Below, piece after piece: positions 3,921 through 6,266 of a stretch of 34,837 nt of DNA. The DNA lies in the IMG/VR virus record IMGVR_UViG_3300037502_000301, positions 1-34,837 of that record; one strand, written 5' to 3'. Every line of letters begins with the position of its first letter. Position 1 is the first letter of the stretch. The DNA comes from a virus. The position numbers and the translations under genes are program-made. The notes below the pieces were generated by a model. That model saw only the letters and a program-made list of their open reading frames with translations, made no database searches and was not told the DNA's origin.

Positions 3921-4239
3921 TGGTTGAGATCCAGGCGAATACTTCTTGAAGATAGTCTGAGAACTCTTGCTTGCTGAGTTTCGTAGTAGATGGCCATACC
4001 ATGATGACTTCCCCGTGGATCTCTAGGATGTCTGGCTTCAGGTATTGGCGTTTAAACCATTCGTGCCATACGGGTGCGGTCTGGTTAGTCTTCTCAGCAA
4101 GGATCTGGAGTTCCTTCCAGTAAAGCGCATTCTGGTCGGCAGTTCTGTTAGGCGGCTTGATCTCTACAGAATGGCCGTCAGGAGCCTGTGCGACCATCTG
4201 TAGGACTGTCTGGCGGTTGCCGTCAAGGATGAACTTCAT
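3913..4239 (-). CDS. ninB: NinB-family recombination protein
   Basis: The sequence matches the NinB/Orf pattern: an N-terminal strand (KFILDG), basic early half, the hallmark RTADQNALYWKELQILAE segment, then the VWHEWFKRQYLKP block and a C-terminal FSDYLQEVFAWI helix. Lambda NinB (Orf) binds single-stranded DNA and helps load recombinases. I start it at ATG 4239, which overlaps the methyltransferase TGA (ATGA) and has GGGAG 5 bases upstream; an ATG at 4251 would add 4 residues. Length 108 aa. Confidence 0.88.
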   Translation of the reverse strand: MKFILDGNRQTVLQMVAQAPDGHSVEIKPPNRTADQNALYWKELQILAEKTNQTAPVWHEWFKRQYLKPDILEIHGEVIMVWPSTTKLSKQEFSDYLQEVFAWISTNA

Positions 4240-5116
4240 AGGCTCTCCCATGCTGTTCTAGCCACTTCTGGAACTTGTCCGTTTCCAATGGCTTTAAGTC
4301 TGTCCACCCTAGCGGCCACCCCATCAGCCACTCGACCCAAGTCGGGTTCAATTTCCCACCAGCTTGTGTACTCAGAGCTGTCCCGCCTTGAGCGTATTTT
4401 TCTTTCCGATGGCTCGTGTCGTCCGCTACTGGTGTCGGCCACAGTCTCCTGCCAACTATTGTTTCTAGGTTTGGAAACCTCTTTTCGTTCCACGCAGATT
4501 CTGGCGTTATTGTCGCCGCCATCGCAGAACAACTTCTTGGGGTCGGCCAATTTACTTGAGCTGTTAAAGTTGGAGTATTCCTTTTGTGTTCGCTCGGAGC
4601 ATTTGTTTCTTTTGCCATGTGAGCAGTTGGCGTTGGCCAAAATCCAGATTCTGTCTCTTTGGTGAGGTGCGCCGACATCTGCTGCTCCCAGCACTCCCCA
4701 TCTCGCATCAAACCCCATCGAGGCCAAGTCTCCGAGTACGGTTCCAAGCCCCCTAGAAGTGAGCATTGGTGAGTTCTCCACAAAGACGAATCTGGGTCGT
4801 ACTTCGTGAATGATCCGTGCCATTTCTCGCCACATTCCTGAACGCTCTCCGTCAATTCCTGCGCCCTTTCCTGCTGCTGAGATGTCCTGGCATGGAAACC
4901 CGCCAGATACGACATCAACAATTCCTCGCCACGGTCTTCCGTCAAAGGTTTGAACATCATCCCAAATCGGGAAAGGCGGGAGAACTCCGTCATTCTGTCT
5001 GGCGGCAAGTACGCAAGCTGCGTATGGTTCCCACTCGACTGCACAGACTGTTCTCCATCCGACGAGATGTCCCCCAAGTATTCCTCCACCAGCACCTGCG
5101 AATAGAGCCAACTCAT
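4223..5116 (-). CDS. WPTP-motif protein overprinted on the methyltransferase gene
   Basis: This 297-codon frame lies entirely across the Dcm gene on the same strand. It begins with ATG directly after the TGA of the upstream gene (TGAATG, same frame) and ends 13 bp beyond the Dcm stop. It contains SFTKYDPDSSLWRT, FSETWPRWG-like SETWPRWGLMRDGECW, three WPTP motifs, and a Trp-rich tail (LNPTWVEWLMGWPLGW, then TDLKPLETDKF). From memory, phage proteins with just these WPTP repeats and this tail are common, often listed as hypothetical or methyltransferase-related; I could not check this. Across the three WPTP copies the base changes are silent here and non-silent in the Dcm frame. Function unknown; I infer it is a real protein, possibly a companion of the methyltransferase. 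Confidence 0.6.
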   Translation of the reverse strand: MSWLYSQVLVEEYLGDISSDGEQSVQSSGNHTQLAYLPPDRMTEFSRLSRFGMMFKPLTEDRGEELLMSYLAGFHARTSQQQERAQELTESVQECGEKWHGSFTKYDPDSSLWRTHQCSLLGGLEPYSETWPRWGLMRDGECWEQQMSAHLTKETESGFWPTPTAHMAKETNAPSEHKRNTPTLTAQVNWPTPRSCSAMAATITPESAWNEKRFPNLETIVGRRLWPTPVADDTSHRKEKYAQGGTALSTQAGGKLNPTWVEWLMGWPLGWTDLKPLETDKFQKWLEQHGRAYEVHP

Positions 5117-5120
5117 TCAT
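4236..5120 (-). CDS. DNA (cytosine-5) methyltransferase
   Basis: All main C5-methyltransferase motifs are present in the 294 residues: motif I ALFAGAGGG (5-13, SAM binding), motif IV GGFPCQDIS (73-81, catalytic Cys77), motif VI ENS (115-117), motif VIII QRDRIWI (154-160) and the motif X-like GNGQVP near 279-284. It transfers a methyl group from S-adenosylmethionine to C5 of cytosine, probably to shield phage DNA from restriction. The region between motifs VIII and IX (about 161-250), where target recognition sits, is short and polar and overlaps the WPTP part of the other frame. ATG 5120 overlaps the upstream TGA as ATGA. Confidence 0.92.
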   Translation of the reverse strand: MNELALFAGAGGGILGGHLVGWRTVCAVEWEPYAACVLAARQNDGVLPPFPIWDDVQTFDGRPWRGIVDVVSGGFPCQDISAAGKGAGIDGERSGMWREMARIIHEVRPRFVFVENSPMLTSRGLGTVLGDLASMGFDARWGVLGAADVGAPHQRDRIWILANANCSHGKRNKCSERTQKEYSNFNSSSKLADPKKLFCDGGDNNARICVERKEVSKPRNNSWQETVADTSSGRHEPSERKIRSRRDSSEYTSWWEIEPDLGRVADGVAARVDRLKAIGNGQVPEVARTAWESL

Positions 5121-5512
5121 GCGGCCCTCATTGTTCTACGCATGACTTCTGCCTTAAAATTGGGCCAGCTATCGAACTCTGACGGGCGCAGTCCGAGTTG
5201 GAGTCCTTTACTCTCAATTCCTGTAGCGGTCTCCCACCAGTTGACTACCTTGCCTTGGACTTGAACTACATCTTCTCCGAGGTCTACACCCCAGTCATCA
5301 TCCCATCTCTCAGCTCGTAACCAAGTGGCCGCATGGGGAATAAAGATCCCGCCATCTTTTCTCCACTGGTCTTGTTGCTTGGCTAGTTCTAGTGCTTTGA
5401 TGATCTTCTCGACTGGCGGTCTTATCTTCTCTGTCTGGCTCCAGGCTTTTCTTGCTTCGCCCTTGGCTACTTTTCTTGGGTATGCCTTCCAGAACTTCTC
5501 AAAGTCTTCCAT
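5117..5512 (-). CDS. Replication-organiser-type protein (131 aa)
   Basis: The first 70 residues follow a pattern seen at the C-terminal end of phage replication initiators: FEKFWKAYPRKVAKGEARKAW, then DGGIFIPHAATWLRAERWDD. Here it stands at the N-terminus of a short protein with an extra C-terminal part. The start has AAGGAG 7 bases upstream. It is the first gene after the long non-coding stretch that has an origin-like appearance, which fits a replication role. Its frame continues, past a single TGA, into the WPTP frame. I infer involvement in replication initiation or helicase loading. Confidence 0.6.
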   Translation of the reverse strand: MEDFEKFWKAYPRKVAKGEARKAWSQTEKIRPPVEKIIKALELAKQQDQWRKDGGIFIPHAATWLRAERWDDDWGVDLGEDVVQVQGKVVNWWETATGIESKGLQLGLRPSEFDSWPNFKAEVMRRTMRAA

Positions 5513-5529
5513 ATCTTCTCCTTTATAAC

Positions 5530-5540
5530 ACTTGTCTACA
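5530..5540 (+). repeat. ACTTGTCTACA regulatory repeat, copy 1
   Basis: The 11-mer ACTTGTCTACA lies 18 bases upstream of the leftward replication-type gene start. The same 11-mer is at 6303-6313 inside the rightward promoter. Both are followed at different distances by TACTCAT(A/G)GG or TACTCATGG. Possibly a shared operator for both units. Confidence 0.4.
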
Positions 5541-5648
5541 TATTTTACTCATAGGTTCCCCAAGGGTGGAAGCCCACCAGATCCCAGGAACCAACTCTTT
5601 GCAACCTTAATAAACATTCCCTAGATACCCCATAAGGCTACGATTCTT

Positions 5649-5657
5649 TCATCCACA
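5649..5657 (+). promoter_or_regulatory. DnaA-box-like site
   Basis: TCATCCACA differs from the consensus TTATCCACA at one base. It is isolated; I see no second close match nearby. Confidence 0.3.
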
Positions 5658-5794
5658 GGTTTGTCTCCACCGCTCGCCCTGTGAACTACCTGAGTCCCTC
5701 GTAGACAGGCTCAGACCTAAACGTAGGGTGTAAACGCTAGGTGTCTTTTCTTCCTGGCCGCCGATTCAAGCGCACTGCTAACGGGAGGAGTCCG

Positions 5795-5921
5795 ACTGGA
5801 AATGAAAAAACCCCTAAGTGAGACTTGGGCTTGACAGGCCAGCACCCGACACAGGTGAAGTGCATACAAGCCTCACTTAGAGGTTCTTTCCTGTGTCTTG
5901 CGCTGGAGCGTCACTTCCAGT
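5795..5921 (-). ncRNA. Structured RNA / elaborate terminator, transcribed leftward
   Basis: Nested inverted repeats: outer arms 5795-5805 and 5911-5921 (ACTGGAAATGA against TCACTTCCAGT), inner arms 5805-5822 and 5872-5889. Read as minus-strand RNA both stems pair fully (11 and about 18 bp) because every mismatch becomes G-U; on the plus strand the same positions are C-A or A-C clashes. The inner stem ends in GGGGUUUUUU, as in an intrinsic terminator. A further pair, GACACAGG at 5848-5855 with CCTGTGTC at 5890-5897, crosses the inner stem and could form a pseudoknot. It begins 10 bases after the gene ending at 5931. It may be a terminator, a stable small RNA or a 3' structure. Confidence 0.55.
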
Positions 5922-5930
5922 ACAGACACA

Positions 5931-6266
5931 TTACTCCACATCTCCGTCAGCTGTCAACTCCACAATTCGCTGGACATATCTGCCCTTTGAGTTCTTACGC
6001 CAGCCGTGGACAAAAACACGCCAGCCAGAAGCCAACATGATAGGAAACGCCTCATTTTCACGGATCTTTTTAATCCGAGCTGACACTCCAGTTGAGGTTG
6101 TCTGGACGGCCCAGGTCTCGCCATTCCCCAAAGCCAGTAGATCTATACAACCGTAGAGGTCTACACGCTTCCGGCTAAAGGAGTTCCAGTACTCACAGAC
6201 CCACGGGATCATCCCTTGATCTCGGAGGTAGGCTAGGCTTCTCTGGGTTGGTGATTTAGTTGCCAT
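5931..6266 (-). CDS. PD-(D/E)XK-like phage nuclease/resolvase candidate
   Basis: The 111-residue protein starts with a basic helix (SPTQRSLAYLRDQG), then has RKRVDLYGCIDLLAL, ETWAVQTTS and a C-terminal GWRVFVHGWRK block. Asp of VDLYGCIDLL and the following strand with Gln-x-Thr replacing E-x-K fit a restriction-endonuclease-like fold of the type seen in small phage resolvase or nuclease families. Active-site divergence leaves catalysis uncertain. It is the first leftward gene. No Shine-Dalgarno sequence is visible; a TATATT lies 6 bases before the ATG, so its mRNA may be leaderless. Confidence 0.6.
   Translation of the reverse strand: MATKSPTQRSLAYLRDQGMIPWVCEYWNSFSRKRVDLYGCIDLLALGNGETWAVQTTSTGVSARIKKIRENEAFPIMLASGWRVFVHGWRKNSKGRYVQRIVELTADGDVE

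Follow-up and report, generated by a model that had tools for sequence, protein, structure and literature searches.

What is the RNA that the virus record IMGVR_UViG_3300037502_000301 of IMG/VR encodes on its minus strand, at about 5924-5795, between the gene for a 111-amino-acid (aa) protein and a leftward operon? The window referred to below is the whole stretch analysed, all 34,837 nucleotides (nt). We propose that the element is an attenuator of the leftward early or replication operon, with its own terminated RNA, matched by type, as the likely blocker of a hypervariable antiterminator helix. On the basis of folding and of comparison with relatives, we put the probability of this explanation as a whole at roughly 0.6. 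The parts of the element are as follows.

5899..5924, minus strand: hairpin P1, with arms 5924-5916 (5′) and 5907-5899 (3′) and the conserved loop AAGUGACG, placed by folding and by double-sided change in relatives.
5911..5921, minus strand: 5′ arm of the outer stem P0, ACUGGAAGUGA; this stem is possible only in readthrough RNA.
5890..5897, minus strand: S1a, the 5′ strand of the hypervariable, predicted antiterminator helix, GACACAGG.
5867..5889, minus strand: S2a, the 5′ arm of the terminator hairpin, placed by folding and S2 covariation.
5848..5855, minus strand: S1b, the 3′ strand of the hypervariable helix, CCUGUGUC, inside the apical loop of the terminator hairpin.
5832..5845, minus strand: conserved GGUGCUGGCCUGUCA, the 3′ side of AT2 and AT3, both of which extend S1 (growing-transcript folding).
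5805..5827, minus strand: S2b, the 3′ arm of the terminator hairpin, with a U-tract of six U at 5810-5805, placed by folding and covariation.
5795..5805, minus strand: 3′ arm of P0, UCAUUUCCAGU, immediately beyond the U-tract.

How much of this does the window itself reveal? The first-pass annotation had described two nested stems ending in six U and a third pairing of 8 base pairs (bp) that crosses the inner stem. All are present. In the outer stem, P0, the RNA's 5′ end pairs over 11 bp with the sequence just beyond the U-tract; the inner stem, S2 (5867-5889 with 5805-5827), is longer than described, at about 23 bp including G-U pairs; and the crossing helix, S1 (5890-5897 with 5848-5855), is real and covaries in relatives. 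The structure is the longest of the window's three inverted repeats of at least 14 nt within 200 nt. The bias of the pairing towards the minus strand is also real, the folding energy being -63.6 kcal/mol against -53.1 kcal/mol for the plus strand (z = -6.2 and -5.0, respectively; none of 200 shuffles was equally stable). But the plus strand also folds well, and the window alone is not decisive. We assign the RNA to the minus strand because of the covariation and the upstream -10-like hexamers found in relatives. No known RNA family had come to mind at first, and Rfam scans of the window indeed gave no match for this RNA; a search for transfer RNA and tmRNA found none. DNA comparison with known phages and plasmids gave no noteworthy relative of the window region and, for the RNA of locus L224, none at all, and the literature searched, with partial coverage, held no description of an RNA of this kind.

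Is the element shared? The 111-aa protein was used to reach related phage loci, and a scan of viral contigs with a conserved 24-nt segment returned 75 viral stretches, which reduced to 51 distinct, complete RNAs like that of the window (class A). A covariance model trained on 47 of these found a single copy in each carrier genome, the exceptions being a contig that has one at either end and faint matches to these hairpins on the reverse strand. It also matched L016, which lay outside the training set. Carriers come nearly all from metagenomes; the exact class A pattern was found in none of 399 bacterial genomes of one order.

The helices are supported by covariation, which the first-pass annotation had named in advance as a test of its claim and which strongly favours a functional RNA. 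The 51 class A RNAs, which as relatives are not independent sequences, hold 44 versions of S1. The mean complementarity of an RNA's own two S1 strands is 23.3, against 11.4 for swapped strands, and none of 10,000 permutations reached the true mean; the strands are complementary in 50 of the 51, only L204 falling below threshold. In a reduced alignment all 248 S1 cells are paired (100%, against 56.7% when shuffled), but this used the best 8-bp window of each RNA, and the swap and permutation test is the fairer one. S2 covaries as well (own arms -33.3 kcal/mol, swapped -26.3 kcal/mol), and it holds most of the nine predicted pairs that show double changes. P1 changes from C-G to U-A on both sides, and P0 covaries more modestly (19.7 own, 18.4 swapped; 0 of 10,000 permutations). 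Upstream, a -10-like hexamer (at least 4 of 6 matches) lies exactly 4 nt from the RNA start in 38 of the 51 relatives; since the best-scoring hexamer of a short segment was chosen, it is the fixed position, not the score, that counts as evidence. With three helices covarying and this hexamer fixed in place, the original proposal of a leftward functional RNA, rather than a mere DNA palindrome, holds.

Could the matching of the S1 strands be inherited? Shared ancestry is an insufficient explanation, because S1 is wholly replaced in near-identical RNAs. Among 59 RNA pairs at least 98% identical outside S1, the identity of S1b is below 0.6 in 56%, and some pairs are identical outside S1 yet differ in S1. 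In dozens of related phages the whole of this 8-bp helix, which locks the competing shape, has been exchanged for another, both strands together. Slow drift by compensatory changes is not expected to have that result, while paired replacement is what one would expect of an RNA identity tag. We also considered, and rejected, an antisense action of S1 on the phage's other genes: in the rest of the contigs S1 words have no excess of matches.

If S1 crosses the terminator hairpin, can the two coexist? A pseudoknot had been suggested at first. In the relatives 0-11 nt, mostly 2, separate S1a from the 5′ arm of the next stem, which is about 21 bp long, and with so short a linker S1 and the full stem can hardly form together. 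A simultaneous pseudoknot is thus unlikely, and because only 2-3 nt precede a stem of more than 20 bp the two are better read as competing states. Folding of the growing window transcript places S1 first, followed by its extension through AT2 (5845-5839 with 5906-5900) and AT3 (5836-5832 with 5913-5909), which uses up P1's loop and its 3′ arm; only when the terminator stem has emerged down to its last bases does another fold become lower in energy. S1 is in the minimum-energy fold of 50 of 50 RNAs at 14 nt, of 49 at 12 nt and of 48 at 10 nt short of the end of the U-tract, but is left in only 5 once all the RNA is exposed. When S1 is enforced, GCUGG pairs with the 3′ arm of P1 in all 50. RNA polymerase hides about that length of RNA (10-14 nt) and, because it covers about the length at which S1 still folds, readthrough would be the default. 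Two features expected of an attenuator are found here: a conserved intrinsic terminator hairpin with its U-tract, in a leader ahead of same-strand genes, and a mutually exclusive antiterminator whose S1 helix covaries, the exclusivity being drawn from linker length and folding. The switching between two states is computed, and we consider it very probable that the element is a bistable transcription attenuator, a switch in cis. As for leader-peptide attenuation, inspection by eye shows that the long-linker relatives lack the ATG close to the hairpin loop.

What might throw this switch? During synthesis of the leader S1a would pair with S1b, and AT2 and AT3 would extend the helix, holding the 5′ arm of the terminator in a loop so that polymerase would read through by default. 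Were S1 blocked, P1 and the long S2 hairpin would form and transcription would stop at the U-tract. The likeliest blocker would be the terminated RNA itself: with S2 formed, its S1 strands would be largely unpaired and could bind their counterparts in newly made transcripts, also where these come from a co-infecting phage that carries the same S1. The outcome would be feedback shut-off of the early genes and the exclusion of phages of the same type. Type-specific pairing in trans would explain why a hypervariable S1 stands amid a nearly frozen remainder. In the calculated folds S1a and S1b are mostly unpaired once the terminator has formed (0.65 and 0.68). When a nascent leader is cofolded with terminated RNA, the leader S1 survives at 14% with the same type and at 85% with a different type (22 types), a contrast that is partly a direct consequence of complementarity. 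The cofolding shows the feasibility and specificity of trans pairing; it is no proof of its occurrence.

That dependence on complementarity weighs against our explanation, and so do several other points. The folding describes equilibrium and ignores kinetics, proteins and pseudoknots. S1 is broken in L204 and carries a mismatch in L234. The -10 of the window matches at 3 of 6 positions only, the weakest of the set. Finally, lysogeny genes were not seen in the sampled carriers, leaving lysogenic immunity as no obvious selective force: the tyrosine integrase PF00589 was found in none of 25 and an HTH_3 repressor in none of 17, while the resolvase domain PF00239 occurred in 1 of 17. Lysogenic immunity is therefore unlikely for most carriers, though some records may be incomplete, and classical lysogeny was rejected on the same grounds.

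We accordingly grade the parts of the explanation separately. The trans step, in which terminated RNA would make transcripts of its own type terminate, is a little short of an even bet. That the whole amounts to a self-typing RNA immunity, in which a leader RNA silences only transcripts bearing the same tag in phages without integrase or known repressor, we offer more tentatively. Were it true, it would entail feedback control, exclusion of same-type phages and constant selection for new tags. Phages would then time early genes and exclude siblings by RNA alone, with a specificity that rests on about 8 bp and evolves like an incompatibility or immunity group. The natural S1 types, at least 44 and potentially orthogonal, would then constitute a natural set of possibly orthogonal RNA attenuators.

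Need anything act in trans? The attenuator might work in cis only, triggered by a protein, a host factor, a metabolite or the speed of transcription, in which case any complementary S1 would serve. The structural evidence fits this equally well, as does the lack of excess S1 matches within the contigs, and a binding site might be provided by the segments AAGUGACG and GCUGGCCUGUCAAGCCC, which are strongly conserved. Those segments, however, are already explained by AT2 and AT3, and control in cis alone leaves unexplained the complete replacement of S1 in RNAs otherwise 98-100% identical, faster than compensatory drift. We judge it unlikely, though not negligibly so. Less probable is a stand-alone small RNA with an ordinary terminator, whose S1 strands would hit RNAs of the host or of rival phages in an arms race that drives their variability. 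A promoter-like site and a terminator do occur in most relatives, and the variable strands are largely unpaired in the full RNA. But external targets do not demand that the two strands match each other, as they do in 50 of 51 RNAs, and within the phage contigs, where the search was made, targets are not in excess.

Might the element instead belong to the P4 CI immunity family, with its segments seqA, seqB and seqC? In the satellite phage P4 short complementary RNA segments stop the replication-operon leader prematurely, and RNA is the specificity factor (PMC4825925). A replication-operon leader, short self-complementary segments and premature termination are common ground. Membership is nonetheless very improbable: S1 has no seqC-like match within about 1 kilobase downstream, the 25 carriers show no tyrosine integrase and, unlike in P4, both strands precede the first terminator. 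Least credible of all is that the 111-aa gene simply ends in an ordinary terminator, or that the element is a DNA palindrome, with extra pairings due to chance, for although a long hairpin and U-tract lie directly behind that gene, three helices covary and many relatives lack the gene in front, the RNA often lying behind divergent genes.

What else lies behind the 111-aa homologue? Several loci have a class A RNA there; others have RNAs that we term class B or class C, or the known int-alpA RNA. Class B has another conserved sequence on the same plan, with a 5′ hairpin, a variable strand and a terminator carrying the variable partner in its loop, and usually an outer stem too. Its variable strands score 20.3 when an RNA's own and 15.0 when swapped (19 RNAs; 0 of 10,000 permutations). 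One class B RNA lies at about 1400-1770 of L091, a 582-kilobase contig that is a scaffold of an Akkermansiaceae metagenome-assembled genome, in a phage-like region adjoining chromosomal-looking genes. This would be a prophage or else the product of chimeric assembly; that part of the contig list contains no integrase match. In class C RNAs (L004, L005, L009, L012, L151, L159) the 3′ arm of a hairpin holds, by eye, the Shine-Dalgarno of the next gene, and the apical loop is matched by a complementary, variable loop upstream (GUGGAA/UUCCAC in some loci; in L005 and L159, GUGAGA/UCUCAC). In the int-alpA RNA a run of 7-12 nt in the loop is complementary to the Shine-Dalgarno region of the gene that follows (L006, L007, L013, L015, L017). 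Across five distinct loci the loop and its target covary, scoring 24.2 when own and 17.0 when swapped, a sign that translation may be under antisense control.

The attenuator of the window has the following neighbours.

5931-6266, minus strand: the 111-aa gene, upstream of the RNA.
5928..5957, minus strand: possible promoter, TTGACA at 5957-5952, an 18-nt spacer and TAATGT at 5933-5928, read directly and missed by the consensus scan.
5513..5794, minus strand: conserved noncoding leader from attenuator to operon, common to L002, L003, L011 and L016.
5117..5512, minus strand: first gene of the operon, 131 aa, resembling the C-terminal part of phage replication initiation proteins (PHROG 9474, E 1.2e-19).

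The 111-aa protein has hundreds of viral relatives and no Pfam or PHROG match; its conserved residues DLYG, IDLLA and WAVQTTS are reminiscent of a PD-(D/E)XK-like fold. In most relatives a same-strand gene, often replication-like, begins about 250-400 nt past the RNA. The attenuator is followed by one of several interchangeable conserved noncoding leaders of about 200-270 nt (also in L142, L180, L193 and L200), and the leader types combine freely with class A and class B heads. Two types match RF02932, the uncharacterised Betaproteobacteria-1 RNA; that of the window has no match, and as one stable fold its 280 nt past the terminator do no better than shuffled sequence (z = +1.4). At 4223-5120 (minus strand) two long frames of 294 and 297 aa overlap; the former is a C5 cytosine methyltransferase and the latter may be spurious.

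How, then, does the element compare with known systems? In close relatives the int-alpA RNA (RF02996) stands at the corresponding position, behind the 111-aa gene, but its structure differs and it would act on translation; in the Rfam scans L006, L015 and L017 match RF02996 and the window RNA does not. The prophage leader that gives IsrK of Gifsy-1 has two products, a short RNA that ends by termination and a longer one made by readthrough (PMC4825925). That pairing of products from a phage leader is the likeness; IsrK governs translation of an internal frame, and the window RNA has no IsrK sequence match in the Rfam scans. With P4 CI the element shares leader termination through complementary RNA segments, and RNA rather than protein for specificity. 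P4, however, has a processed CI RNA with targets upstream and downstream, whereas here both strands lie in one attenuator of about 120 nt, S1 is hypervariable and has no downstream copy, and no integrase was seen in the carriers.

In the pT181 attenuators, too, terminator and antiterminator compete and an RNA tips the balance towards termination, as it would here. The effector of pT181 is an antisense RNA from the opposite strand, whereas the effector proposed here is the terminated RNA of the same strand; a consensus scan found no promoter for an opposite-strand RNA near the structure, weak promoters still being possible. Because the testable features of P4 are missing and pT181 uses opposite-strand RNA, we conclude that the element is a new variant of RNA-controlled attenuation, outside both the P4 CI and the pT181 families.
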